Assembly: GCA_023248635.1 (NCBI GenBank) | Contig: JAHFED010000001.1 | Location: 62,001-126,000, forward strand | DNA from: Myxococcales bacterium | Lineage (GTDB): Bacteria; Myxococcota; UBA727; VGSZ01 | Direction of reading: 5' to 3' | DNA length: 64,000 nt | In this document: positions 6,457 to 54,054 of the stretch, in pieces | How positions within the stretch are numbered: position 1 is the first letter of the stretch | How the letters are laid out: every line of letters starts with the position of its first letter | The notes under the pieces: generated by a model | What the model saw: only the letters and a program-made list of their open reading frames with translations | Database searches by the model: none | Told to the model about the DNA's origin: nothing | Program-made: the position numbers and the translations under genes

Positions 6457-6541
6457 GCCGACGTGGCGGAATGGTAGACGCAGGGGACTTAAAATCCCTG
6501 GACGCGCAAGCGTCGTGCGGGTTCGAGTCCCGCCTTCGGCA
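6457..6541 (+). tRNA. tRNA-Leu (anticodon UAA)
   Basis: An 85-nt cloverleaf with acceptor strands GCCGACG and CTTCGGC (one mismatch), anticodon stem GGGGA/TCCCT around loop CTTAAAA with anticodon TAA at 6490-6492, a long class II variable arm, and T-arm GCGGG-TTCGAGT-CCCGC. The CCA end is not encoded. The 3' 55 bases (6487-6541) are duplicated at 18553-18607, so the functional gene is now a hybrid whose 3' part came from the integrated element. Confidence 0.97.
6487..6541 (+). repeat. attL: 55-bp direct repeat, 3' part of tRNA-Leu
   Basis: Runs from ACTTAAAATCC in the anticodon loop to the discriminator base A. Identity with 18553-18607 is complete over 55 bp and stops at both edges (G versus A before it, G versus C after it). 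The length and position are typical of tyrosine-integrase attachment cores that use the anticodon or T-arm symmetry. Confidence 0.93.
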
Positions 6542-13732: not shown

Positions 13733-15133
13733 CTACTGGACGCAGTCGCCGGCGTTGACGATGAGAGCGCCGACACAGCTCGTCAGGGCGGGGTCGTCCT
13801 GAATGCTGACATTGGCGGCGCTCTCAAGCACCGGCAGCGACAATGACGCCAATGCTTGGTTCCGTTCGATGCCGAGGTTGTCACCCACGGTCTCCAGCAC
13901 CGGTAGCGACACGGCCGCCAGGGATTCGTTGCTGGCGATAAAGAGGGCGCTACCAATGCTCACCAGCGCAGGCAGGTCCACGGGCGTCAGGGCGACGTTG
14001 TTGTCGATTTGGAGGCTGCCGGTCACGCTCTGGAGCAACGGCAGGAACATCGTCGTCAAGGTTTCGTGTCGCTGAATGATCAGCCGCCCACCTACGTTCC
14101 CCAGCACGGGGAAAGACACCGACGTCAGGGCCGGGTTGGTATCGATGGCGACACCGCCACCAACGCTCACCAGGGCCGGCAGGGACAGCGAGGTCAACGC
14201 TGTGCTGTTGTTGAGGGTGAGGGCACCCGCACTCTCCAACGCGGGCAGAGACACCGACTCCAAGTTGGCGACTATGAAGACCTCCCCACCAACGCTCGCC
14301 AACGCCGACAGCGACAGCGTCGTCAGCGCAGGGTCGTTGCTGATGAAGAGCCCGCCATCACCAATACTCACCAACTCTGGGAGCGATATGGCCGTCAGGG
14401 TGTTGTTGCCCGTAACGAGGAGCGCACCAGCGCTCGCGAGTCGCTGAAGCGAGATCGATGCCAGGGCGGTGCTGATATCGACGTCGCCACCTGCGCTCTC
14501 CAACGCTGGCATCGAGACGGACGTCAGGGTGCCGTTGCCGAGATCGAGGTCGCCACCAACGCGCACCAACACCGGCAGCGATAGTGAGGCCAACCCCTCT
14601 GCGGCAACCAGGTTGCCTGTCACGACGCAGACGTTCGCCATTGCTGCGACGTCAATTGAGTTCTCGATGGTGATGGACCCCTCGAGAGTGCCGCAAGGCT
14701 CGCCTTCGCCTTCTCCTTCGCCTTCTCGTTCGCCTTCTCCTTCGCCTTCTCCTTCGCCTTCTCCTTCGCCTTCTCCTTCGCCTTCTCCTTCTCCTTCTCC
14801 TTCGCCTTCGCCTTCACCTTCGCCTTCGCCCTCGCCTTCACCTTCGCCTTCGCCTTCGCCTTCGCCCTCTCCCTCACCTTCGCCTTCGCCTTCACCCTCT
14901 CCTTCGTCCTCTCCGTCACCTTCGCCCTCTCCCTCACCCTCTCCCTCTCCCTCACCTTCGCCCTCTCCCTCGCCTTCGCCTGCTTCTCCGGACGCGGGCG
15001 CGGTCTCGCAACGATCGGCAACGCACACCTGCCCCAGCAGGCAGAATTCGTCGCCAGCGCACTTCGCTTGTGGTCGAAGGCAGCCGCCGAGGGCACCGAG
15101 CAGTAGTGGCAGCAGGAATCCACTTGCCCGCAT
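13733..15133 (-). CDS. Surface lipoprotein with Gly-Glu linker and leucine-rich repeats
   Basis: 466 residues from the ATG giving [18 protein letters not shown], whose LGGC lipobox predicts a lipid-anchored Cys. A short Cys-rich head (about residues 19-45) is followed by roughly 100 residues of almost pure Gly-Glu dipeptides. The C-terminal 300 residues hold about a dozen 22-24-residue repeats of the form [21 protein letters not shown], which should form a beta-solenoid like receptor L-domains, closed by a Cys pair at the end. The start overlaps the stop of the upstream gene as TAATG, so the two are coupled. The same repeat occurs in the chromosomal protein at 38382. Confidence 0.8.
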
Positions 15134-18552: not shown

Positions 18553-18607
18553 ACTTAAAATCCCTGGACGCGCAAGCGTCGTGCGGGTTCGAGTCCCGCC
18601 TTCGGCA
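18553..18607 (+). repeat. attR: 55-bp direct repeat, displaced tRNA-Leu 3' end
   Basis: A perfect copy of 6487-6541. Upstream bases do not form the 5' half of a tRNA, so this is not a functional tRNA gene. It marks the right edge of the element. Confidence 0.93.
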
Positions 18608-29332: not shown

Positions 29333-30703
29333 ATGGCTTCGGCGCGTTGGGCCTTGCTCGTCGTCGTGTTGGCAGCGCTCGGCTGTGAAAGCCCCGTGGA
29401 CACCGATCCCCTGTCCCATCTTCCGCGCGGTGCAGCGCAGCTCGAGGCCCTTTGTGCCCGAGCAGGCGACAACGCCATCACCAGCGCCTTGTGCGCCGGC
29501 GAGACCCCAAGCGTGACGTCGCTCGTCGAGCTGCAGAGCCTGCTTGGTCTGGCCTTTGACGAAAACGGCCGGCCCGATTTTGCCCTGACCGCCAATTCGT
29601 CGTCGCTGGTGGCGCGCCAGGTCTCGGCGATCAATCCGCGCGCGGTGTTGATGAACGTCCCCGAAGACCGCGAGGATCAGAGCTTCATCGCCCTCGCCTA
29701 CACCCGCGGCGATCAACTCGTCGAAATCGCCGTGACCCCGCCGACGGGCGAAACCGCGTTCTATCTGTTGCGCTACGAGCGCGGCTGCGACGACGACGGC
29801 ACCCCGTGCTCGTTGCAGCAGCGCTTGTTGCCCGAGACCGAGAGCGGGTGGACGGATTGGTCCATCTACGACGACAGCGACCTGGGCAACTCCGTCTTCG
29901 ACTGCTTGCAGTGCCACCAGCCAGGCGGACCGGGCACCCCACGCATCTACCGCATGCAAGAGCTGCAGAACCCCTGGACCCATTGGATGGGTTCGTTGTC
30001 ACGCGGCGGGCGCACCCTGCTCCTCGACTACCGCGCGGCCCACGGCGTCGACGAGACCTATGCCGGCATTCCCGGGGGGCTCATGCAAAACGCCAATCCC
30101 ATCGTGCTCGAGAATTTCGTCAAGCGCACCAACGGTGACAGTGAGAGCGAAGAGCCCAACGCCTTTCCCTCCCAGGCCATCGAAGACGAAGTGCGCGCCA
30201 ACAACCCGGCCCAGCCCGAGGACAACGCCACACCCGGTCGCAGCGCCACCTGGAACGACCTCTACCAGCGTGCCGTCGTCGGCGAGGCACTGCCGCCGCC
30301 CTACCACGACATCAAGATCACCGACCCGCAGAAGCTCGAGACCATGACCCGCGCCTACGTCGACGCCGTCGCCGGCACCTTGAGCGGAAATTTCCCCGAC
30401 ATCCGCAAGGTCTTTCGCGACGACGCCCTCGCCGACCTCTCGCTGCGCCCCCGCGCGGGTCTCGATGGTCGCGGGATCCTCGTGCACATGTGCGCCCAGT
30501 GTCACAACCCGCGCCTCGATCAGAGTCTGACCCGCGCCCGTTTCGACGCCACCGACCTCGACCGCCAGAGCCGCGAGGAGAAAGACGCAGCCATCGCGCG
30601 GCTGCGGCTGACCGACGACGATCGCTTCCGTATGCCCCCGCATTTCTTCCGCGACCTCAGCGACGACGAGATCGAGGCCAGCGTGCAGGAGCTGCAGCGC
30701 TAG
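29333..30703 (+). CDS. Diheme c-type cytochrome lipoprotein
   Basis: 456 residues from ATG 29333 (a TTG two codons upstream is in frame). The signal MASARWALLVVVLAALGC is a lipobox, so the protein should be lipid-anchored in the periplasm or outer membrane. Two heme-binding motifs are separated by about 200 residues: CLQCH (in VFDCLQCHQPGG) and CAQCH (in VHMCAQCHNPR). No distal ligand can be assigned with certainty. It may be a peripheral electron carrier or sensor. Divergent from the encapsulin operon. The stop TAG forms the first three bases of a mobile repeat (30701-30850). Confidence 0.85.
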   Translation: MASARWALLVVVLAALGCESPVDTDPLSHLPRGAAQLEALCARAGDNAITSALCAGETPSVTSLVELQSLLGLAFDENGRPDFALTANSSSLVARQVSAINPRAVLMNVPEDREDQSFIALAYTRGDQLVEIAVTPPTGETAFYLLRYERGCDDDGTPCSLQQRLLPETESGWTDWSIYDDSDLGNSVFDCLQCHQPGGPGTPRIYRMQELQNPWTHWMGSLSRGGRTLLLDYRAAHGVDETYAGIPGGLMQNANPIVLENFVKRTNGDSESEEPNAFPSQAIEDEVRANNPAQPEDNATPGRSATWNDLYQRAVVGEALPPPYHDIKITDPQKLETMTRAYVDAVAGTLSGNFPDIRKVFRDDALADLSLRPRAGLDGRGILVHMCAQCHNPRLDQSLTRARFDATDLDRQSREEKDAAIARLRLTDDDRFRMPPHFFRDLSDDEIEASVQELQR

Positions 30704-30850
30704 CAGGGTGCGGAAAAACTCCGTTTTTCGCACCCTGCTGTACTTCCGGAGGGTCTGTCCCAGACCCTCCCTCGTCGAGGCGAAGCCTCGACGAGCCTCC
30801 CTCCCAAGCACGCGTCTGCCTCAAGACTTCGTTTTTCGGCAGCCTGCTAG
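30701..30850 (+). repeat. MITE-like multi-hairpin repeat, copy 1
   Basis: 150 bp with imperfect inverted ends TAGCAGGGTGC and TAGCAGGCTGC. Inside are three further hairpins: a GCAGGGTGCG arm with A-rich/T-rich core, GGAGGGTCT-gtcc-AGACCCTCC, and CTCGTCGAGGC-gaa-GCCTCGACGAG. Both edges double as stop codons: TAG of the diheme lipoprotein gene (30701-30703) and, on the other strand, TAG of the gene at 30847. Removing the insert and one TA restores CGCTAGCG, in which two convergent genes would share CTAG. Confidence 0.85.
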
Positions 30851-31395
30851 CGCTCGTTGAGAACTCGGCCCCCCAGCCCCGCAAAATTGGAGTTGGGGGG
30901 CCAAGTCTCTCGATCTGAACGACGAACACGCCACAGTTCGTGGACGCCAAAGACGGTGCGTGCGAGCGCTTCGACGACGAGAGCGACCAGGGCGACGGCG
31001 CCAGCGATGCCGGCGAAATGGTGAGAGACCACTTCGGACGCGCGCGGGAGCTCGACGGCGAGCAGGAGAAAGAAAGATCCAGCAGCGACGAGGCCGAGCT
31101 GCAGCAGCACCAGCAGCAGGCGTCGGCCCGGCCCCTTCACACGCACCGCCAGGATGCCGACCAAGGTGGCGACGAAGAGGGCGATGGGTGCGAGGGCAAA
31201 GAGCGGGTCGTCGTTGACGCTGTCGGCGAAGAGCTCGAAGCCCGTGAAGGTGACGGGCGGTTTGTCTCCTTCGCAGCCCGTCGCTGTGAGCCAGGGCAAC
31301 GCAAGCAGCACCATCAGCGTTGCCAGCATCGACACCCGCTGCCAGGGATGACGAACGGACAAAGGAGGGGCGTCGACAACGAGCACGTCGGCCAT
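30847..31395 (-). CDS. Small polytopic membrane protein, unknown function
   Basis: 182 residues from the ATG giving MADVLVVDAPPL. Four hydrophobic segments are visible: about residues 24-42 (MLATLMVLLALPWLTATGC), 66-84, 92-112 and 125-145. A polar loop with acidic residues lies between the first two. No family is recognised. The gene is divergent from amtB (112-bp gap) and its TAG stop is formed by the edge of the repeat at 30701-30850. Confidence 0.65.
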   Translation of the reverse strand: MADVLVVDAPPLSVRHPWQRVSMLATLMVLLALPWLTATGCEGDKPPVTFTGFELFADSVNDDPLFALAPIALFVATLVGILAVRVKGPGRRLLLVLLQLGLVAAGSFFLLLAVELPRASEVVSHHFAGIAGAVALVALVVEALARTVFGVHELWRVRRSDRETWPPNSNFAGLGGRVLNER

Positions 31396-35179: not shown

Positions 35180-36169
35180 TTACTTCAGGGACTCGCACAC
35201 GGCGGTCCCGAGCAGGCGCACCTGGATCGAGTGCCGGGAACGGTCGGCAATGGAGCGCCACTGGGGCTCCGCGTAGTCGCAGCTGTGCTCTTTGCCGCTC
35301 TTGGCGTCGCGCAGCTGCAGCGAATACTTCTCGGCGCGCGTGCCTTCGCGTTCGGCACCGCGTCCAGTTCCAAAGCCCGCGAGGCGCACGGCGGGCCATT
35401 GGGGCGCATCCGTCAAACCACCCTTGGCCAACTCGTCGCGCTGGTGGTGCCACCGGTCGACGTCGAAATGGCATTTGTCGTCGTAGACGGGCTCGGTTTT
35501 GTATTTGGTCTTGCACTCGTTGACGACCTTGAAAGTGCCGTCGCCCTGGTCCTTCTGGCGGTCGTGACATTCCTGTCCGTCGGCGACCTGTTTGGTCGAG
35601 CGCTCCTCGCGGGTGTGGCTGACGTTGTAGGCGCCACCGGGCAAGGCATCGCACCACGCGCTCTCGTGCACGGCGTCGAAGCGCTCGATGGCGATGCTGC
35701 GCGTCCACGTGTGGGCCATGATGTCGACGGTGACGTCCTTCTTGATCAGCAACAGGAACGCGAGCACCACGCCGACGACGCCGACCGCGGCTGCGATCAG
35801 GATGGGCAGCTTCGAGCGCGCTTTCTTCGGCGCGGCTGCATCCTTCGGCTTGTTGTCGACGAGGGAGCCGTCTTTGACGATGCGATCGGTCTGCAACTTC
35901 GCCGATTTGTTGCCCTCTTTGGGGTTCCCGCAGTTTTGACAGAAGGCCGCCGCAGCACCATTGGGCGTCGTGCAGGCACCACAGGTCCAATCGGCGCCTT
36001 CGAAGCGGTGGCCCTCGACTGCCACCTCTTCGCCGGGCTTGGGGAAGTAGCGCTTGCTCTCGTCTTGGGGGGACCCGCAGTTGGGACAGCGACGTTGGCT
36101 TTTGCCCAACAGGCCGTTGGTTCCACACGCGGTGCAATTCCAGAGCATCTCGTAAACGCGATCGGCCAT
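35180..36169 (-). CDS. Zinc-ribbon membrane protein
   Basis: 329 residues. Two four-Cys zinc ribbons occupy the N-terminus: CTACGTNG ... CPNCGSP (about residues 12-33) and a RanBP2-like CGACTTPNG ... CQNCGNP (about 63-83). After a Lys/Ala linker a single membrane helix (LPILIAAAVGVVGVVLAFLLLI, about residues 122-143) precedes a 185-residue extracytoplasmic domain. That domain holds an acidic and charged region with several Cys (WCDALPGG, GQECHD, VNECKTK, DDKCHFDV, HSCDYAE, AVCESLK). The function is unknown. First gene of the operon; the repeat copy 2 lies just upstream. Confidence 0.75.
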   Translation of the reverse strand: MADRVYEMLWNCTACGTNGLLGKSQRRCPNCGSPQDESKRYFPKPGEEVAVEGHRFEGADWTCGACTTPNGAAAAFCQNCGNPKEGNKSAKLQTDRIVKDGSLVDNKPKDAAAPKKARSKLPILIAAAVGVVGVVLAFLLLIKKDVTVDIMAHTWTRSIAIERFDAVHESAWCDALPGGAYNVSHTREERSTKQVADGQECHDRQKDQGDGTFKVVNECKTKYKTEPVYDDKCHFDVDRWHHQRDELAKGGLTDAPQWPAVRLAGFGTGRGAEREGTRAEKYSLQLRDAKSGKEHSCDYAEPQWRSIADRSRHSIQVRLLGTAVCESLK

Positions 36170-36229
36170 GGCCCGAACCTAGCGCAAGTCGTGCGCGCGC
36201 CGCTGCGCGCGCGTGCCGGTGCCCGCGCT

Positions 36230-36378
36230 TAGCAGGCTGCTGAAAAACGAAGTTTTGAGGCAGACGCGTGCTTGGGAGGGAGGCTCGTCGAGGCTTCGCC
36301 TCGACGAGGGAGGGTCTGGGACAGACCCTCCGGAAGTACAGCAGGGTGCGAAAAACGGAGTTTTTCCGCACCCTGCTA
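36230..36378 (-). repeat. MITE-like multi-hairpin repeat, copy 2
   Basis: 149 bp, inverted relative to copy 1 and nearly identical. The right edge (36376-36378) is the TAG stop of the cyclic nucleotide-binding protein gene. Removing the insert with one TA would leave TTCTAA, an in-frame TAA stop for that gene. Confidence 0.85.
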
Positions 36379-36912
36379 GAAGCTCCAGTCGGAGAAGAGG
36401 CGCTTCTTGAACGCCTGGAACTCCTCGATCTGCTCGTGAGGATTGTGGTCGACCGTGCGTGAGGCCATGTCGCCGATGCGGATGTTGATGGCCTTGAGCC
36501 GGCCCGCGAGCACCCGGGCCAGGGCGTACATGAGCTTGTAGGCGACGGTGGGCTCACGCTTGAGCAGCTCCTCGAAGTCCTTCCAGGTCACCCTCAGCAC
36601 CGTGGCCGCGGGCGAAAGCACCACGGCGGAGGCCGAGCGTCGCTCGCGGGTCAGCAGGCTCATCTCGCCGACGACGGCGCCGGTGCCGTGAACGGCGAGC
36701 GAGTGGTTGGCGCCGTCGGGCAGACGCTTGAGAATCTCGATCTCGCCCTCGGCCAGCAGGAAGAGAGCATTGGGTTCGCCGCCTTCGTCGAAGAGCTTGT
36801 CGCCGCGGGTGAAGCGCTCCCGAGCCGAGATCATGAAGAGCTCGCGCGCTTCGGCGTCGGTGAGGTCGGCGCCGACGTTCGACTTCAACCAGGTCTGATG
36901 AGAAATTTCCAC
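36376..36912 (-). CDS. Cyclic nucleotide-binding domain protein
   Basis: 178 residues made almost entirely of one CRP/PKA-type cNMP-binding domain (about residues 25-145): RGDKLFDEGGEPNALFLLAEGEIEIL, then VVGEMSLLTRERRSASAVVLSPA as the phosphate-binding cassette, and a C-terminal helix. No HTH follows, so it is not a CRP-type transcription factor; it may be a regulatory subunit or a stand-alone sensor. The last codons are SDWSF before a TAG stop supplied by repeat copy 2. Confidence 0.88.
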   Translation of the reverse strand: MEISHQTWLKSNVGADLTDAEARELFMISARERFTRGDKLFDEGGEPNALFLLAEGEIEILKRLPDGANHSLAVHGTGAVVGEMSLLTRERRSASAVVLSPAATVLRVTWKDFEELLKREPTVAYKLMYALARVLAGRLKAINIRIGDMASRTVDHNPHEQIEEFQAFKKRLFSDWSF

Positions 36913-38381: not shown

Positions 38382-41300
38382 ATGCTCTCGTCGACGCCCC
38401 TTGCAGTCACTTGGCTCTTGCTCGGGCAGATCGTCGTCACCGCCGTCGACGACGACGGCAACAGCGGTGACTGCAGTCTGCGCGATGCCATCGCCGCTGC
38501 CACGAGCGATGTCGCTGTCGACCAGTGCGCCGCCGGCCTCGGGGGCCAAGACGTGGTGCGGCTGACCGCCGGCGCGCGCTACGAGTTGGGCAGTCCGCTA
38601 CCGGTGAACGGCCCCCCGGGCAACGTCGTCATCGTCGAAGGCCAGGGATCCACCATTGTAGCCCGCGCCGACGCCTCCCTGGCCAGCCACTTCGAGGTGA
38701 CCAGCGGCTTTCTTCAATTGCAGGATTTGCTGATCGACGGCGAAGGGAGGGGGGGCGGGATCTCCGTCACCGGCGCGAGTCTCCAGCTCGAGCGCATGAC
38801 CCTGTCTGGCATCGTCGAAGGCGACGGCAACGACGGCGACGGCGCTCTCGTTCTCGAGTCTGCCGTGCTGGTGATGAACCGCGTGCTCATCACCCAGAAC
38901 ATCTTGTCCGTCGTGGCCGGCGACCCGCCGGTGACCGCCCACAACACACCCTTTTTCATCACCGACAGCGCCGTCATCGACAACGAACCCGGTGGCATCG
39001 GCATCGACAACTCCCTCGGCATCACGACCAATGTGATTCGCACCTTGTTCCAGGGCAGCTCGGGGCTGCCTGCCTTGATCTTGCGCGGCGGCGGATCGGC
39101 GCTGATCGTGGACAGCACCTTCAGCGCCAACGCCACCGGCGCCGTCGATTGCCCGTCGACGCCCTGCAGCCTCTTCGGCGTCACCGCCACAGCAAACACC
39201 GAGGCTGCCGTGCGCCTCGGCGGCCAGGCCGTCGTGCGCGACAGCCTCCTCGCCGGCAACGGCAACGGCGGCGGAGGCGCCTGCCCGAATTTCGAGGCAC
39301 CCGAGGTGGAAGTGACATCGACGATCATCGGCGGCCCCTTCAACAACCCGGCCTGCGTCGGTGCCTTCTCGGGCGCCACTTTCAGCGATGAGCCCCAGGT
39401 GGCGTCGTTGGCGGACAACGGGGGACCGGTGGTCGGTGCCATCCTCACGACGCCGACGCTGACGCACGCGCCGCTGCGGAGCTCCCTCGCGTCGGGGGCC
39501 GGCAGCTGCTTCGCCCTGCAGCACTCCCCCGATCACCGGGGCATCGCGCGGCCGGGGGCCTGCGACATCGGCGCCTACCAGAGCATCTGCGGAGACCGCG
39601 ACATCGGCGCCGCTGAGGACGGCGACGACGGCAATGCCAGCGACGGCGATGGGCTCTCGAGCCTTTGCCAGATCGAGGCTGGGTGGACCTGCGACGGGCT
39701 TGAGCCCACCACCTGCACCAGCGTGTGCGCCGATGGCTTGGTGCGCCAGAGCGAGAGCTGCGACGACGGCAACTCCAGCTTCGGCGATGGCTGCACGCCA
39801 GGGTGTCGAGTGGAGGCCGGCTTCGCGTGCACGGGCGAGCCTTCGCAGTGCGCGCCCATCGCATCCTGCGGCAATGGCGTGATCAATGGCGCCGAGCGCT
39901 GCGACGACGGCGGCCGCGTCGACGGCGACGGCTGCACGGCGATTTGCACCGTGGAGCCGGGCTTCGCCTGTGCCAACGGCGGCGGCGCGTCGATCTGTCA
40001 CCCCACCGACTGCGGCAACGGCCTTATCAACGCCGCCGAGCGCTGCGATGACGGCAACTTCAACAGCGGCGATGGCTGCAACCGCACCTGCGGTGTCGAG
40101 CCCGGCTTCGCCTGCACGGGCTTGCCCTCGGTGTGCGCGATCGCGACCTGCGATGGCCGCAGCGACCTGAGCCTGGCGCTCGGCAACGTGACCCTGGCCG
40201 ACGACGACGAAGTCACGGCCTTCGACGCAGGCGGCTCCGGCTGCATCACCGGTGATCTCGTGATCGGCCCAGCGGTGGGCGCAGCGACCCTCAACCAGCT
40301 GGTGGTCGTGCTCGGCGTCGTGCGGGTCGAGGGCGGCGTCACCACCGCTTTGTCGCTCCCCCTGCTGGAACGCGCGGGGGCCCTGGTGCTGCGCGACGAC
40401 GCCGAGCTCGCCGGGGTGCTCGCGCCGCTGCTGGCCTCGATCGCGGGCGATCTGGTCTTGGTGGGCACCGACGCGCTCGAAACCCTCTCGCTCCCCAGCT
40501 TGGCAACGCTGGGAGGCGATGCCGTGGTCCAGGGCAACACGGGCCTTCTCACGCTGGCGCTGCCCGCCCTCGGCGACGTTGGCGACGACGTCGTCATCGT
40601 CGAAAACGGCGCTCTCACGACCGTCGATCTGGCCGCGCTCACAGACGTCGGCGGCGATGTCGTCGTGGCCAACAACGCCGCGCTGGCTGGCTTGACGCTG
40701 GCCCTGGTCGATGTCGGCGGCGACCTGGTCATCGAAGACAACGATGCCTTTGAGCTCCTGCTGGCGCCCGAGCTCCGAGACGTCGGCGGCGACCTCACGG
40801 TGCGCGACAACGACGCGGTCCCCAACCTGGATCTGTCGGGGCTGGCCTCTGTCGGCGGTGAGATCGACCTCGAAGCGAGCGACGTCGCCATCGAGGGCCT
40901 CGGCAACGTCGGCGGCGATCTCGTGGTGGTGGTGCAGGGAGATCTCGACCTGGGGGAGCTCGCGAGCGTGGGTGGGGATCTGCGCATCGACGCCGGCGGC
41001 GACGTCGACCTGGGCGCGCTCAGCGAAGTCGGCGACATCGACGTCGCAGCTGGAGGCGAGCTCTTGCTCCCCGTCACCGTCGACGACGTCGATGCTGATG
41101 GCGTGCCCAACGAAGTCGACGTCTGCCCGACCACCTTCGATCCGCCCCAGCAAGACAGCGACGACGACGGCGTCGGCGACGCCTGCGAGAATTCCGGCGA
41201 AGGAGAAGGAGAAGGAGAAGGAGAAGGAGAAGGAGAAGGAGAAGGAGAGGGGGAGGGAGAAGGAGAGGGCGAGGGAGGCGAAGGCGAAGGCGGCGCGCCG

Positions 41301-46813: not shown

Positions 46814-48649
46814 ATGTCCTCACCTTCGCTTCTTGAGCGCCAACGCACGCACACCTGCAACGATCTCTTGCCCAAAGACGTCGGCAGCGAGGTCGTGCTC
46901 ATGGGATGGGTGCAGTACATGCGTGATTTCCACGGGCGCATCTTCATCGACCTGCGCGATCGCCATGGGCTCACCCAGCTGGTGTTCAAGCCCGAGACGT
47001 CGTCGGCGCTGCGCGATCAGGCCGAGAAGCTGGGCCGTGAGTTCTGCATCGGCATCAAGGGCGTCGTCGAAGACCGCTTGAAGAACGGCGGTGCCGCCAA
47101 CCCGCGCCTGAAGACCGGGGACATCGAAGTCTCGGTGCTCGAGCTCGAGGTCTTCAACACCTCGGCGACGCCGCCCTTTCTCATCGAAGACGACCTCGAC
47201 ACCAATGAAGAAAAGCGGCTCGAATTTCGTACACTCGACCTGCGTCGTCCGAAGATTCAAAAGAACCTCGCGATCCGTCATCGCATGATGCAGGCCACGC
47301 GACGGCACTTCGACGACCACGGCTTTCTCGAGATGGAGACGCCGCTGCTGGTAAAGTACACCCCGGGAGGCGCTCGCAACTTCCTGGTGCCGTCGCGTCT
47401 CAATCCCGGTAAATTTTACGCTCTTGCTGAGAGTCCTCAACTCTACAAGCAGATGTTCATGATGTCGGGCCTCGACCGCTACTTCCAGATCGTGAAGTGC
47501 TTCCGCGACGAAGACCTGCGGCAGGATCGCCAACCCGAGTTCACCCAGATCGACGTCGAGATGAGCTGGGCGACAGAGACCGTGGTGCAGACCCTGATCG
47601 AGGGCCTGGTGTGCCGCATCTTCCAAGACGCCATCGGCCAGCAGCTGCCGCAGCCCTTCCAGCGTATGACCTACGACGAAGCCATGTCCCGCTTCGGCGT
47701 CGACAAACCCGATCTGCGCTTTGGCCTCGAGCACACCGACATCACAGCCCTGGTGCGCGAGCACGACGGCGGCGGCGTCAAGCTGCTCCAAGATGTCATC
47801 GCCAAGCCCGGCACCCTGGTGAAGGTGATGGTGGTGCCCAAGAAGCACGAGATCTCGAACACTGAGGTCGACAGGCTCAAAGACGTGGCCAAGGGCCTCG
47901 GCGGCGAAGTCGGCTGGTCACGGGTCGAAGAAGGCGGCACCTGGGCCAAAGGCTTCGGCAAGGCGATGTCGGCGGGGCTGCGCGAGGCCATCAACCAGGC
48001 CACCGGCGCCCAAGCCGGCGACGTCGTCATGTTCCAGTTTGGCAAGCCCTCCATCGTGCACACGGTGTTGGGCGGGCTGCGCGTTCACTTGCGCGACAAG
48101 CTCAAGCTCGTCGAGCTCGATGCCAACGGCGTCAGCAAGGAGTGGCGCGTGCTTTGGGTCACCGATTTCCCTCTCTTCGAGCACGACGACGACAAGAAGA
48201 GCTGGGCCGCAGCCCACCATCCCTTCACCGCGCCGCAGCAGGGCCACGAAGACAAGCTGCTCAGCGATCCCGGCAGTTGCCGAGCACGCGCTTACGATCT
48301 GGTGCTCAACGGCAACGAAGTCGGCGGCGGCTCCATCCGCATCCACGACAGCGCGGTGCAGGCCAAGGTCTTTGAGGCCCTGGGCATCTCTGACGAGGAC
48401 AAACAGAAGAAATTCGGCTTCCTCCTCGAGGCGCTGAAATATGGCTGCCCACCCCACGGCGGCATCGCCCTCGGCCTCGACCGCTTCTGCATGTTGCTGT
48501 GCGGTGGAAGCTCACTGCGCGACGTCATCGCCTACCCCAAGACGCAGAAGGGGACCGACCTGCTGACCGATGCGCCCACGGCAGTGAGCGACAAGCAGCT
48601 GCTCGAGCTCTTTATCCAGACGACAGCCAAGGCTGACGACGTCGCTTAG
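46814..48649 (+). CDS. aspS: Aspartyl-tRNA synthetase
   Basis: 611 residues, the usual bacterial length. An OB-fold anticodon domain (GWVQYMRDFHGRIFIDLRDRHGLTQLVF) is followed by the class II core. Motif 2 is FQIVKCFRDEDLRQDRQPEFTQIDVEMS, the GAD insertion lies between, and motif 3 is GGIALGLDRFCMLLCG. FLEMETPLL and YALAESPQLYKQ are also present. It charges tRNA-Asp with aspartate. The stop codon TAG is the first three bases of repeat copy 3; without the insertion the gene would end in TAA. Confidence 0.97.
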   Translation: MSSPSLLERQRTHTCNDLLPKDVGSEVVLMGWVQYMRDFHGRIFIDLRDRHGLTQLVFKPETSSALRDQAEKLGREFCIGIKGVVEDRLKNGGAANPRLKTGDIEVSVLELEVFNTSATPPFLIEDDLDTNEEKRLEFRTLDLRRPKIQKNLAIRHRMMQATRRHFDDHGFLEMETPLLVKYTPGGARNFLVPSRLNPGKFYALAESPQLYKQMFMMSGLDRYFQIVKCFRDEDLRQDRQPEFTQIDVEMSWATETVVQTLIEGLVCRIFQDAIGQQLPQPFQRMTYDEAMSRFGVDKPDLRFGLEHTDITALVREHDGGGVKLLQDVIAKPGTLVKVMVVPKKHEISNTEVDRLKDVAKGLGGEVGWSRVEEGGTWAKGFGKAMSAGLREAINQATGAQAGDVVMFQFGKPSIVHTVLGGLRVHLRDKLKLVELDANGVSKEWRVLWVTDFPLFEHDDDKKSWAAAHHPFTAPQQGHEDKLLSDPGSCRARAYDLVLNGNEVGGGSIRIHDSAVQAKVFEALGISDEDKQKKFGFLLEALKYGCPPHGGIALGLDRFCMLLCGGSSLRDVIAYPKTQKGTDLLTDAPTAVSDKQLLELFIQTTAKADDVA

Positions 48650-48796
48650 GCAGGCTGCTGAAAAACGAAGTTTTGAGGCAGACGCGTCCTTGGGAGGGAG
48701 GCTCGTCGAGGCTTCGCCTCGACGAGGGAGGGTCTGGGACAGACCCTCCGGAAGTACAGCAGGGTGCGAAAAACGGAGTTTTTCCGCACCCTGTTA
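48647..48796 (-). repeat. MITE-like multi-hairpin repeat, copy 3
   Basis: 150 bp in the same orientation as copy 2. The left edge is the TAG stop of aspS, with one extra G (TAGGCAGG). The right edge reads CTGTTA. Excising the insert with one TA leaves GCTTAAGG, so aspS would still end in frame at TAA. Confidence 0.85.
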
Positions 48797-48805
48797 AGGC
48801 CGACC

Positions 48806-50251
48806 TCAGAATTTGACGGCAGTGACGGCGTCGCCCGACTCGCTGCCGGTGTCGACGATGACCACTTTTCCGCTGACGGCGACGACGGATCCTTCTCCTC
48901 TTGCGCCGCCGCGCAGAAGCAGGGTCACGGTCTGTCCCTTGGTCACCTTGGTGCCTTTTGGAACCGTGATGCGCACCCGAGATGAGAAGTCACCACTGGC
49001 GAGGCGGCCGAACAGCTCGTTGTGGCGCACCGCGGCGCCCACCAAGACCTTGAAGCCCGTGAGCCTGCCGTTGCTGGGAGCAGACACAGGCATCACGGGC
49101 CCGTGAGCGGCTTGGAACGTGAGCAACACCTGCCCCTCGACCACAGTGTCGCCATCGGCGGCGTCCACGCTCTCTACGCGCCCGTCATAGTTGGGGTACC
49201 TGAGCGCCTCGAGCTTGGCGCCGTCGACGGTGGCGGGGAAGGTCGCCTCGGAGGCGTCGACGGGGGCTGCGCTTGGGGTGGGCGGCGCCGCCGCCGGTCG
49301 CACGCGTTTCGGACGTCGCCCTCCCTTGGCGGCGACGGCGGGCTCGGGCTCATCTGCTGCGGCCTCGGGCTCGGCGACGGCAACCGGCGTCGGAGGGATC
49401 ACCGGCACCGCGGCGACAGGGATCGGCGGAGGAGCAGCGACGACGCCGGCATCGGAGGGCCCAGCAACGACGCCAGCGTCGGGCAGGACGGTTGTGGGAG
49501 AGGCCGCGGCAGCCGCGGGGTCGCCAGCGGGGGTTCCCGCGTCGAGCGAGGGCACAAGAGCGGGTGGTGCGACGACGGGTTCCGGCGAGACCGGAGGGGC
49601 GACGGCTGCTTCGGCAACCACGGCGGTCGCAGCAACGGGCGCTGGCGTTGGGGCTGTCGCCACCAGTGCGGCCGAGGCTGCGCCGCCCAGCAGCAAGGAG
49701 CCAAGGAGGCCGCCGAAATACCAACCCCCGAGGACTTTGCCGAAGCTGGGCGCCGGCGGCGGCGGCGGCTCGAGGGCTGGCTCCGGCAGCGGGAGCTCCA
49801 AGCGTGGCGCGGGGAGGGGCGGCGGGGGGGCGACGACGACGACGGGGGTGCCCGGCAACGAGGGGGCAGCGGGGTCGGGACGCGCGCGGTGGCGGTTGGG
49901 GCCCCCCTTCTGCGTGAAGCGCAGGGTGCAGCCGCAGATCTTGATTTCGTCGCCGTCGTAGAGATCTGCGCGCTGCACGGGCACGCCATTGACCAGGGTG
50001 CCGTTGCGGCTTTCGCAATCGACGATGAGGTAGCGGTCCCCCTGCCCGACGATCTTGGCGTGGACCTTCGAGACCCCGGGCTCTTGCGAGAGCGCGAGGT
50101 CGTTGTCGTCGACGCGGCCGATGGCAAAGGTGCCGGCGGAGAGGTCCCAAGAACGTCCGGCGACGCTGCCGGCGACGCAGGCGAGCTGGCCCGACAGTGC
50201 GTTCGGCAGCGCGAACATCATCGTCTTTTCGGACTTCTCGGCCTGACCCAT
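48806..50251 (-). CDS. FHA domain membrane protein with a barrel-sandwich C-terminus
   Basis: 481 residues from ATG 50251 with a GGAGAG site. An FHA domain (about residues 30-115) has FAIGRVDDNDLAL, SKVHAKIV and CESRNGTLVNG, which bind phosphothreonine. A Pro-rich linker precedes one membrane helix (WYFGGLLGSLLLGGAASAALVATAP, around residue 175). About 110 residues of Pro/Ala/Val low complexity follow. The C-terminal 130 residues have two lipoyl-like hybrid motifs (YPNYDGRVESVDAADGDTVVEGQVLLTF and SAPSNGRLTGFKVLVGAAVRHNELFGRL) without a biotin/lipoyl-type Lys. The FHA part is cytoplasmic and the barrel periplasmic, which suggests a signal link across the membrane. Confidence 0.78.
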   Translation of the reverse strand: MGQAEKSEKTMMFALPNALSGQLACVAGSVAGRSWDLSAGTFAIGRVDDNDLALSQEPGVSKVHAKIVGQGDRYLIVDCESRNGTLVNGVPVQRADLYDGDEIKICGCTLRFTQKGGPNRHRARPDPAAPSLPGTPVVVVAPPPPLPAPRLELPLPEPALEPPPPPAPSFGKVLGGWYFGGLLGSLLLGGAASAALVATAPTPAPVAATAVVAEAAVAPPVSPEPVVAPPALVPSLDAGTPAGDPAAAAASPTTVLPDAGVVAGPSDAGVVAAPPPIPVAAVPVIPPTPVAVAEPEAAADEPEPAVAAKGGRRPKRVRPAAAPPTPSAAPVDASEATFPATVDGAKLEALRYPNYDGRVESVDAADGDTVVEGQVLLTFQAAHGPVMPVSAPSNGRLTGFKVLVGAAVRHNELFGRLASGDFSSRVRITVPKGTKVTKGQTVTLLLRGGARGEGSVVAVSGKVVIVDTGSESGDAVTAVKF

Positions 50252-50333: not shown

Positions 50334-51350
50334 TCACAAGAGCAGTTGCCGCAGCGCAGCAGGCGCCAAGGCCTGCGGAGCATCGCTGAGCGCAGCCTCG
50401 GGCCGGTCGTGGGTTTCGACGACGACGCCGCAGACTCCGGCCGCCAAGCCGGCGCGCCCCAGGGGTACCACGACGTCGCGGCGGCCTGCGGCGTGGGAGG
50501 GATCGACCAGCACCGGCAAAGTGTGCACATGGGCCAACACGGCGACGGCGCCGACGTCGAGGGTGTTGCGGGTGCCGCCGTCTGGCCCCCTCACCCCGCG
50601 TTCACAAAAGAGCACCCCGCTGGCCCCGGCCATCAAGAGAGCTTCGCCGGCGAGCAGCCACTCCTCGAGGGTCGCGGCGAAGGCCCGCTTCAAGAGCACC
50701 GGTTTGCCGGCGGCGCCCACAGCCCGCAGCAGGGCTCCGCTGTGCATGGTGCGGGCGCCAATCTGCAGAGCGTCGACGACGGCGGCAGCGGCTTCGACGT
50801 CGGCTTCGGCCACCACCTCGGTGATGACGGGAAGCCCGTGCTTCTTGCCAGCGCTGGCCAACCAGGCGAGGGCACTTTCGCCGACGCCTTGAAAGCCACG
50901 AGGGGAGGTGCGGGGTTTCCACACACCACCCCGGAGCACGTGGGCGCCGGCCTCTTTCACGGCGGCGGCCAAGCGATCGATCTGCTCGGGGCTCTCCACC
51001 GAGCAAGGGCCGGCGATGAGCACCGGGGGCAAACCAAACCCAAAGGAGACGCCGCCGACGTCGACGACGCGCTGCATCTGGTCGACGAGGGGATGGGGAC
51101 TCTCGGCCTCGTGGATGGCAACGACGCCGGGCACACCTTCGATGAGGTGACGAGCGACGTGGGTCGACGAGGGAGAGATGTGGAAGGAAACGCGCTCGCC
51201 TTCTCTTGGCGCTCCGGCCTCCGGCCCCAAGGCTGCATCCTCCGGCGCCAAATGCCGCGGGCTCGGGGCGTAGCAGCGCGTCCACAGTCCGAGCCCGCGC
51301 AAGGCACGTTCGACGGCCGCAGACCGGGAGCGTTCAGCGACGACGATCAC
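50334..51350 (-). CDS. aroF: DAHP synthase (3-deoxy-7-phosphoheptulonate synthase)
   Basis: 338 residues from GTG 51350 (MIVVAERSRSAAVERAL). The first 70 residues form the ferredoxin-like regulatory domain of the type I-beta class. The barrel follows: LIAGPCSVESPEQI, RGGVWKPRTSPRGFQGVG, PVITEVVAEADVEA, IGARTMHS, KPVLLKRAFAATLEEWL, CERGVRGP, PVLVDPSHAAGRRDVVVPLGRAGLAAGV. It condenses PEP and erythrose 4-phosphate, the first step of aromatic synthesis. The start overlaps the stop of the upstream lipoprotein gene (GTGA), an odd coupling partner. Confidence 0.94.
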   Translation of the reverse strand: MIVVAERSRSAAVERALRGLGLWTRCYAPSPRHLAPEDAALGPEAGAPREGERVSFHISPSSTHVARHLIEGVPGVVAIHEAESPHPLVDQMQRVVDVGGVSFGFGLPPVLIAGPCSVESPEQIDRLAAAVKEAGAHVLRGGVWKPRTSPRGFQGVGESALAWLASAGKKHGLPVITEVVAEADVEAAAAVVDALQIGARTMHSGALLRAVGAAGKPVLLKRAFAATLEEWLLAGEALLMAGASGVLFCERGVRGPDGGTRNTLDVGAVAVLAHVHTLPVLVDPSHAAGRRDVVVPLGRAGLAAGVCGVVVETHDRPEAALSDAPQALAPAALRQLLL

Positions 51351-52441
51351 TGTCCCTCGCCTTCGCCTTCGCCTTCGCCTTCGCCTTCGCCTTCGCCTTC
51401 GCCGCTGCTGGGGCACTGATCGGCCGCGACGTAATCCAGAAAGCCGGAGCAGTCCCAGACCTTGGCGTTGCATTGGGCCCCACAGGCGATGGGGGCGTCG
51501 TCGGGGTCGCAGCTTTTCAAACAAGGAACGCGGTCGACGCCGTTGCACGCCGTGATCCCGGGGCAAGCGGGTTCGCCTTCGCCTTCCCCCTCGCCTTCGC
51601 CCTCTCCTTCGCCTTCGGCGCACTGATCGGCAGGTGTGGAGCCGACGTTGCTGCACTCCCACTCGTCGGACGTGAGGTTGCAGATCGAGAGGCCGTCGTC
51701 GCTGAGGGGATCGCAGCCCACGAGGCAGGTCGGGGGAAACGCAGGCTCACAGTTGCAATCGCTGGCCGGAATGCCGCCGTCGTCGCAGACGAAGACGAGA
51801 TTCTCGTCACAGCGGGCGGTGCCGGCGACGTCGTTGGGGTCGCAGCCGTTCAAGCAGAGCGGTTCGTTGCCCCCACAGGCGGGACACTCGCTGCCCTCGA
51901 AGATGAAGTCGTTGGGATCGGAGCAGCGGGCGACGCCGCCGGCGGCCGGGGACGCCTCGACGCACTCCGTGCTCCGGGGCGCCGGGTCCGCACAGCTCGA
52001 CACACAGCTGAGCTCGTCGCAGCCGCCAACGCGGCATTGTCCATCGAGGGTTTCGTTGAAGCAGAGAACGACGCCGTCTTCGCAGAACCAACCCGAGGGG
52101 ATGTCGGCGGGACAGGGGCCGCAAGAGCCGAGGGTCAGGCCGTTCTCACAGACTTCGACATCGTCGGCGCACACCGCCGGACTCACCAGCTGACCGGTTT
52201 CGCAGTCGAAGCAGCCCGAGGCAGTGTCGGGGCATCCACCGGGAGTGATGCCGTCGCACACGGTGGGCCGAGGCGGGTCGGAGGGCTGGGCGCAGGTCCC
52301 ACATTCGCAGGCGAGGCCGACGTCGCACTGCACCGATGAGGCGCAGCTTTGGCCTTCGGTGACGCCGGGCGGCACGGGCGGTCCGCCGCAGAGGCAGGAC
52401 GCAAAGGAGACCGCGACTGCGGCGACGACGAGGGCGCGCAT
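51347..52441 (-). CDS. Cys-rich secreted lipoprotein ending in a Gly-Glu tract
   Basis: 364 residues. The N-terminus MRALVVAAVAVSFASC is a lipobox. The body has more than 40 Cys in EGF-like or disulfide-knot spacing (QCDVGLACECGTCAQ, VCENGLTLGSCGPCPADI, CLNGCDPNDV). Two Gly-Glu tracts occur; the protein ends on the second one ([10 protein letters not shown]) with no anchor helix after it. Usually such a linker is followed by a MYXO-CTERM-type helix, so the C-terminus may have been lost when aroF was joined. The stop overlaps the aroF start by four bases. Confidence 0.75.
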   Translation of the reverse strand: MRALVVAAVAVSFASCLCGGPPVPPGVTEGQSCASSVQCDVGLACECGTCAQPSDPPRPTVCDGITPGGCPDTASGCFDCETGQLVSPAVCADDVEVCENGLTLGSCGPCPADIPSGWFCEDGVVLCFNETLDGQCRVGGCDELSCVSSCADPAPRSTECVEASPAAGGVARCSDPNDFIFEGSECPACGGNEPLCLNGCDPNDVAGTARCDENLVFVCDDGGIPASDCNCEPAFPPTCLVGCDPLSDDGLSICNLTSDEWECSNVGSTPADQCAEGEGEGEGEGEGEGEPACPGITACNGVDRVPCLKSCDPDDAPIACGAQCNAKVWDCSGFLDYVAADQCPSSGEGEGEGEGEGEGEGEGQ

Positions 52442-52530: not shown

Positions 52531-54054
52531 GTGCTTTGCGTCGTCGTCGTCGCCCTCCTTGCTGGCCTGCCCGCCGTCCACCCGCCCTGTGGGACCCTGG
52601 CCTTGCGCGATCGCTCGTCGAGCCTGTTCAGCATCGGGTTCGCCGACCGACCCGCTGACGTCGACGTCGCCGACTCCGGGCTTCACCCGCTGAGGGTGCA
52701 CCGGGGAGCGGCGGCGAGCGGCGAGCAGGCGGCGCTGGTGCTCGCGGCCCTCGACGCAGCCTGGGCGTTGCAAATCGACGGCGCCGGCAACCTCGAGCCC
52801 CTGCCCGACACCGCCAACGCCGACGGCTTCGACGACGACGGCGGCGACGCTCGCTTGGACGTCTACCTTTCGCCCCTCCCCCCGGGGGTCGGCGCCCTGA
52901 CCGTCAGCGGCGGCAGCGGAGTCACGCGTCCGACCTTCATCGTGCTCGATCCCCAAACGCCCGACGACGTGCTCGCCGTGAGCGTGCACCACGAGTTCCA
53001 GCACGCCCTGCAGTTCGCCGTCGACGCCAACGAGAGCGCGATGTGGTTCGAATCCACCGCGGTGGCCTGGGAGGTCCGCGCCCATCCCGAGACGACGTCG
53101 TGGCTCGATCTGGTGCCAGCCTTTCAAGAGCAGCCGATGGCCCCTGTGTTCACCGACAGCGTGCACTTTGGGGTCGCCGCCGTCGACCCCACGTACGAGT
53201 ACGGCGCCGCCCTCTTCGCGCTGTACCTCGACGACGTCCACGGCGCCGGCGACGGGAGCTTGTGGCGCCGGCTGTGGCTGGGCTCGGCGCAACCCGCAGC
53301 CGGCGACCCCGACGACAACGAACCGGATTGGCTCGATGCGCTGGGCAGCGAGCCCGACGTCGACGTCCCGGCCCTGCTCCTCGACTTTGCGGGGTGGCGG
53401 GCCTTGGCTGGATCCTTGAGCGTCGACGGTGACGGCCCGGCGCTGGCTCTCGATGCCCGCGCCGATCTCGCGGGGCGTGCGATCCTGTTGGAAGGTCTGC
53501 GCGGGCAGGAGCGGGAGACCACCATCGCTGAAGGTCCCTTCGTGATGGGCTGCAGCGTGCACATCGGCACGGCCCCGCTGGGGCTCGACATCCCGGTGCG
53601 CATCGAAGCCAGCAGCGTCGACGACCACGAGCTCGGCATCAGCGTCGTCGTCGTCGACCGCGTCGCCCGGGTGGCCACGCGGACCACTTCGAGCATCGCC
53701 AGCGCCGTGGCCATCGACGTCGACGTCCCGCGCGGGCTGACGCTGGTGGCGAGCATCTGTGACCTCTCCGCCGCTGACGCCGACGACGACCCGGTCTTTG
53801 CGCCCGTGCTCTTGAGGCTCGCCCGGCGCGACCTGCCGCCCGGCGAGGGTGAGGGCGAAGGAGAGGGAGAAGGGGAGGGAGAAGGCGACGACGTCGTCGT
53901 CCCTGATTGTTCGTGTCAGGCGTCGTCGGGAGACCCCATGGTGCAGCGGCGCTCGATCGGCGTGCTGGGGCTGCTGGTCGGCGGCTTCGGCTTTGGCGTG
54001 CGCGGGTGGCGGGCCTGGAAAAGACGACGGCTCTACCGAGATCGCAAGCGCTGA
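52531..54054 (+). CDS. MXAN_6640-like putative secreted metalloprotease
   Basis: 507 residues with a GTG start and a short signal peptide (MLCVVVVALLAGLPAVHPPC). The zinc-binding motif HEFQH sits in VSVHHEFQHALQFAVDANESAMWFESTAVAWE, with a downstream Glu fitting a gluzincin-like site. This matches my memory of the MXAN_6640 family putative metalloproteases. After beta-rich domains comes a Gly-Glu tract. The terminus is PDCSCQASSG, then a hydrophobic stretch and a basic tail, a MYXO-CTERM-like anchor. It is probably cell-surface attached. It converges on ylxR where infB would normally follow. Confidence 0.8.
   Translation: MLCVVVVALLAGLPAVHPPCGTLALRDRSSSLFSIGFADRPADVDVADSGLHPLRVHRGAAASGEQAALVLAALDAAWALQIDGAGNLEPLPDTANADGFDDDGGDARLDVYLSPLPPGVGALTVSGGSGVTRPTFIVLDPQTPDDVLAVSVHHEFQHALQFAVDANESAMWFESTAVAWEVRAHPETTSWLDLVPAFQEQPMAPVFTDSVHFGVAAVDPTYEYGAALFALYLDDVHGAGDGSLWRRLWLGSAQPAAGDPDDNEPDWLDALGSEPDVDVPALLLDFAGWRALAGSLSVDGDGPALALDARADLAGRAILLEGLRGQERETTIAEGPFVMGCSVHIGTAPLGLDIPVRIEASSVDDHELGISVVVVDRVARVATRTTSSIASAVAIDVDVPRGLTLVASICDLSAADADDDPVFAPVLLRLARRDLPPGEGEGEGEGEGEGEGDDVVVPDCSCQASSGDPMVQRRSIGVLGLLVGGFGFGVRGWRAWKRRRLYRDRKR

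Follow-up and report, generated by a model that had tools for sequence, protein, structure and literature searches.

The genome studied here (hereafter the home genome) is a 6.53-Mb draft of 135 contigs, whose ends often lie in repeats; the window, 64,000 nucleotides of its contig C9, contains three copies of a short repeat. Each measures 143 bp between CAGG and CCTG and the copies are 98.6 to 100% identical, which agrees with the near-identical copies of about 150 bp reported in a preliminary description of this DNA. Copy 2 (36233..36375, forward strand) is the reference; copy 1 (30704..30846, reverse strand) is inverted with respect to the reference orientation, CAGGCTGCTG...GCACCCTG, and is 98.7% identical to copy 2, and copy 3 (48651..48793, forward strand) is 98.6% identical to it.

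Copy 1 lies between two CTAG duplications that each end a gene. In the left one (30700..30703), TAG at 30701-30703 is the stop of the forward gene 29333-30703; in the right one (30847..30850), the reverse-strand TAG at 30847-30849 is the stop of the reverse gene 30847-31395. At copy 2, the left duplication TTAG (36229..36232) meets no gene end and lies upstream of the start of the reverse gene 35180-36169; the right one, CTAG (36376..36379), is one base off the left copy, and its TAG at 36376-36378 is the stop of the reverse gene 36376-36912. The left flank of copy 3, TTAG with an extra G (48646..48650), contains the stop of aspS (TAG 48647-48649; forward gene 46868-48649), and the right flank TTAA (48794..48797) carries no gene end, the next reverse gene stopping at 48806. 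Genes were called with a home-made codon-periodicity caller, trained on 464 kb of the home genome and applied identically to observed and null sites. By this caller, four of the six edges coincide exactly with a stop codon, and every copy has at least one such edge, as had been claimed.

Other repeats occur in the window. Within called genes, units of 6 and 12 bp (GAAGGA/GAGGGC and complement) are repeated in tracts at 14628-15029, 41178-41295, 51341-51631 and 53830-53905, which probably code for Gly/Glu-rich linkers. An exact 55-bp direct repeat is found at 6487-6541 and 18553-18607; the first copy makes up the 3' half of a tRNA gene (6457-6541), so the other resembles a duplicate of the tRNA 3' end and perhaps marks an integration boundary.

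Structure and family of the repeat

Imperfect inverted repeats, with 27-nt arms that are 81% complementary, bound the element. With its inverted ends, the element is also short, non-coding and multicopy, and its identification as a miniature inverted-repeat transposable element (MITE) stands. A strand folds into four hairpins, namely an imperfect one at one end, two perfect inner ones and a near-perfect one at the other end, and the fold is far stabler than that of shuffled sequence (z of -8.3 as RNA and -10.6 as DNA). On the forward strand of copy 2, the inner hairpins are CTCGTCGAGGC/GCCTCGACGAG (36284..36308) and GGAGGGTCTG/CAGACCCTCC (36309..36331), the latter present in near-identical form inside other home-genome repeats, and the strong end hairpin is AGCAGGGTGCGAAAAA/TTTTTCCGCACCCTGCT (36340..36377). 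It had been proposed that these hairpins could end transcription; a consensus scan for intrinsic terminators (a G+C-rich stem followed by a T run) gave no match within copies 1 and 2 and so lends this role no support. Rfam gave no match at the repeats.

The home genome holds about 40 copies, 96 to 100% identical. Of the 43 copies analysed, two are halves and one is diverged (L041, L045, L046), and nine are truncated where a contig ends, as is to be expected of repeats, which break assemblies. Two internally deleted versions of about 85 bp (L042:2000-2087 and L043:2000-2087) keep both ends and lack the two inner hairpins. A diverged sister family of about 150 bp, about 75% identical, is found on contigs C63, C98, C80, C93 and C102 (L048, L051-L054), with ends TAGCAGGCTGCGGAAAAA...CTCACCCTG and YTAR flanks in several copies. 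Four copies at the ends of contigs C46, C64, C44 and C102 (L009, L012, L019, L032) have a similar right flank, agagccga(a/t)ccgc, which suggests that the MITE lies there inside or beside another repeat.

A pattern scan of the named genome collection for the exact inner part of the MITE gave no match. Similar elements with the same end motif occur in relatives, both in the same genus and in other families of the phylum. The aspS orthologues of G001-G003 have no element downstream where this is readable, and they are too diverged for alignment of the exact site; a Deltaproteobacteria MAG was the one relative returned by an aspS scan of the collection. For gene 29333-30703, an orthologue appeared only as a partial match, in one relative.

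Target duplication and full-length relatives

The preliminary description had read the flanks as a TA duplication of the IS630/Tc1 type. Instead, the duplication is 4 bp long and has the form YTAR: left and right copies are identical in 23 of 27 pairs, against 10.1 expected, and none of 100,000 permutations matched as well. The pairs comprise 11 CTAG/CTAG, 9 TTAG/TTAG, 3 CTAA/CTAA and 4 unequal ones, and a few copies have odd edges. The first base is equal in 25 of the 27 pairs, and so is the fourth. Since the bases flanking TA are duplicated as well, the duplicated unit is 4 bp and not TA. Published IS5 duplications are Py-T-A-Pu, most often CTAG (PMC5493358; PMC10359306), and this corresponds to the CTAG/TTAG/CTAA usage of the MITE. 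An IS630/Tc1-mariner MITE could draw on the TA in every edge and on the many bacterial MITEs with TA ends (PMC2229807). We consider it highly improbable given the equality of the outer bases and the IS5-family transposases encoded by insertion sequences (ISs) with matching ends (described below), and a TA duplication was rejected on the 4-bp match of both edges.

The several strong hairpins, the 3'-proximal location and the copy number of about 40 also bring to mind repeats of the REP/BIME type, mobilized by a Y1 (RAYT) transposase. Single-strand transposition by Y1 enzymes is not known to make target duplications. This candidate was rejected because the MITE has clear 4-bp duplications and the home genome gave no PF01797 match, and we regard such an origin as extremely doubtful.

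When 195 genomes of the phylum were searched for YTARCAGGNTGCNGAAAAA, two inverted pairs 1.2 to 1.3 kb apart came to light, in G129 and G182. These pairs (L130 and L131) are complete ISs, bounded on both sides by CTAG, beginning with CAGG(C/T)TGCTGAAAAA and ending with TTTTTCAGCA(G/A)CCTG. Each has one transposase ORF of 360 to 367 codons, and the products score above the cut-off of the NCBIfam IS5 equivalog NF033581 (transpos_IS5_4; 273 and 243 bits vs 140) and also match Pfam DUF772 and DDE_Tnp_1. G129 and G098 also contain short MITEs (L135, L136), which measure about 120 bp and are flanked by CTAG at either end. Full-length elements with matching ends and a transposase were found in other genomes of the phylum and not in the home genome, whose 135-contig draft yielded no IS5-type transposase and no DUF772 match; the only DDE transposases found there are two IS4-type genes. 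From this result we infer an enzyme acting in trans. A short-end search in plasmids gave chance-level matches only.

We conclude, with a probability of roughly 0.85, that the 143-bp repeat is a non-autonomous MITE of the IS5 family, which a transposase would mobilize in trans and whose association with stop codons would be mostly passive.

Stop codons and the choice of null

Genome-wide, the stop of a called gene falls precisely within the duplication in 22 of the 43 copies, or at 23 of the 75 ends that are visible. The expectation that every copy has an edge on a stop codon therefore holds for the window and for only about half of the family, and the other copies divide about evenly between stops and elsewhere rather than lying mostly away from them. 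No copy lies inside a called gene anywhere in the genome. When the flanks were rejoined, 2 of 28 sites overlapped a gene call; one belongs to a copy with damaged ends, and the other is a 36-bp overlap at the gene's start side, which may come from how the start codon was chosen. The copies cluster near the 3' ends of genes.

The null for site counts was a 464-kb sample of the home genome, in which the 162 YTAR sites outside elements comprise 66 coding sites (41%), 77 intergenic sites and 19 stops. Relative to non-coding YTAR sites, stops are overrepresented among the insertions of the home genome (17:15 vs 19:77, p=0.0005), also when divergent gene pairs are left out (16:7 vs 19:43, p=0.002). 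Counted per end, the stop share was 6/20 vs 29/306 in G019, 5/22 vs 13/252 in a large-genome family of the phylum and 2/8 vs 1/18 in G002, the last not significant alone; over four genome groups the pooled OR was 4.3 (p=2e-9). Restricting the null to YTAR sites at most 60 bp 3' of a gene removed most of the excess, not all of it: the home genome gave 23:8 vs 19:11 (p=0.42), and the pooled OR was 1.9 (p=0.09, small counts). Furthermore, the MITE prefers YYTARR, and against YYTARR sites the ratio was 16:7 vs 8:9 (p=0.2, small numbers). The idea that the element inserts at stop codons is accordingly upheld as a frequency above chance among non-coding YTAR sites and unsupported as a targeting rule, with about half of the copies elsewhere and the excess over 3'-proximal sites not significant.

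We consider that target sequence and selection would account for most of the stop pattern. A 143-bp element would insert at YTAR when an IS5-type DDE transposase, supplied in trans, recognizes its CAGGSTGCNGAAAAA ends, and the 4 bp that are observed to be duplicated would come from this step. YTAR holds TAA or TAG on both strands, so that the duplication restores an in-frame YTAR stop for genes on either side of the insertion. Where the target is an in-frame YTAA or YTAG stop, the copy of the duplication beside the gene supplies the identical stop, and the gene stays unchanged from whichever direction it arrives, as can be read directly from the sequence. The claim that the element rebuilds the stop it interrupts thereby stands, with the 4-bp duplication preserving it. 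This genome is GC-rich and has few YTAR sites, and no copies are found within genes, so a large share of the surviving copies would be found at stops or just 3' of genes. The pattern would then be mostly passive, arising from the target sequence and purifying selection with no stop-recognizing mechanism, and a modest real preference for stops may possibly remain.

A stronger preference would mean that stops are favored beyond YTAR, either because DNA structure or transcription, for example, directs insertion to the 3' ends of genes, or because insertions at stops are retained where the adjacent hairpin protects or ends the mRNA. It would fit the pooled per-end enrichment, a second repeat family that has other ends and the same stop coupling, and the report that IS5 needs more than YTAR, for example destabilized DNA (PMC5493358). 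Gene ends also abut the strong-hairpin edge more often than the weak one (17/41 vs 6/34, p=0.04), a marginal bias that may stem from chance, from asymmetry of the target or from an effect at the mRNA 3' end. However, the excess is not significant against YTAR within 60 bp 3' of genes and disappears against YYTARR sites, albeit with small numbers; some half of the copies sit elsewhere than at stops, and the scan of copies 1 and 2 gave no terminator-like site. We therefore hold this explanation to be unlikely, though well worth keeping in mind, and favor the passive origin from target sequence and selection.

A second repeat with stop-containing targets

The home genome holds a second, more abundant repeat with ends TCCCCGATCTCG...GGGA (TCCCC...GGGA) and 203 matches to its end motif; examples from the genome-wide set (G000) are L049:1949-2116, L050:1950-2117, L085:655-817 and L079:10224-10558. 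Its target duplication is the 3-bp TNA, with both sides identical in 25 of 27 copies, and any TNA reads as a stop codon on one of the two strands. The IS1031 group of IS5 typically duplicates TNA. In 11 of 27 copies the duplication contains the stop of a flanking gene, placement on TGA or TAA stops being frequent, and at non-divergent sites the ratio of stops was 11:14 vs 264:913 in the null (p=0.016). Like the 143-bp MITE, it lands on stop codons, with a TNA of 3 bp in place of the YTAR of 4 bp, and it contains a near-identical GGAGGGTCTG-N3-CAGACCCTCC hairpin, yet its ends are different. The two IS4-type (NF033590) transposase genes on contigs C5 and C59 (L064:1261-2649 and L065:1375-2340) have its TGATCCCCGATCTCG end motif close by. 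Among candidate full-length elements, that is, end pairs 0.35 to 0.94 kb apart, no transposase was recognized by eye.

Taken further, stop-containing targets (YTAR and TNA) might form a built-in safe-harbor system, in which stops are the main non-disruptive sites of GC-rich genomes and the retained copies give genes a standard 3' hairpin module. The idea of such a module comes from the near-identical GGAGGGTCTG hairpin within repeats that differ in ends and duplications; we offer it as speculation that is more probably wrong than right by a wide measure.

The proposed mechanism would offer a simple and checkable reason for the presence of small transposons on stop codons, as the sequence that IS5-type elements target reads as a stop on either strand, and duplicating it restores that stop. 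For annotation, this means that a mini-transposon can supply the stop codon of a gene. Additionally, these repeats provide a natural test of the shares of targeting and selection in MITE placement, and they call for caution, as placement at stops alone is no evidence for a stop-recognizing enzyme.

Comparison with known systems

Correia elements and RUP (PMC2229807) are, like the MITE described here, short and non-coding, with inverted ends, many near-identical intergenic copies and a target duplication. They are A+T-rich and duplicate TA, in contrast to the G+C-rich MITE and its YTAR. The IS5 family offers another close likeness. The right end of the MITE, AGGGTGCGGAAAAACTCC, resembles the E. 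coli IS5 end, GAAGGTGCGAACAAGTCC; the flanks of E. coli IS5A at the fetched locus show no clean 4-bp duplication, and the statement on YTAR rests on the papers cited above. The first 15 to 18 end bases of the full-length ISs of G129 and G182 are identical to the MITE end motif. The MITE differs from the ISs of this family in its length of 143 bp, its lack of an ORF and of a transposase, and its four hairpins, and it is a well-preserved representative of the already known IS5-family MITEs.
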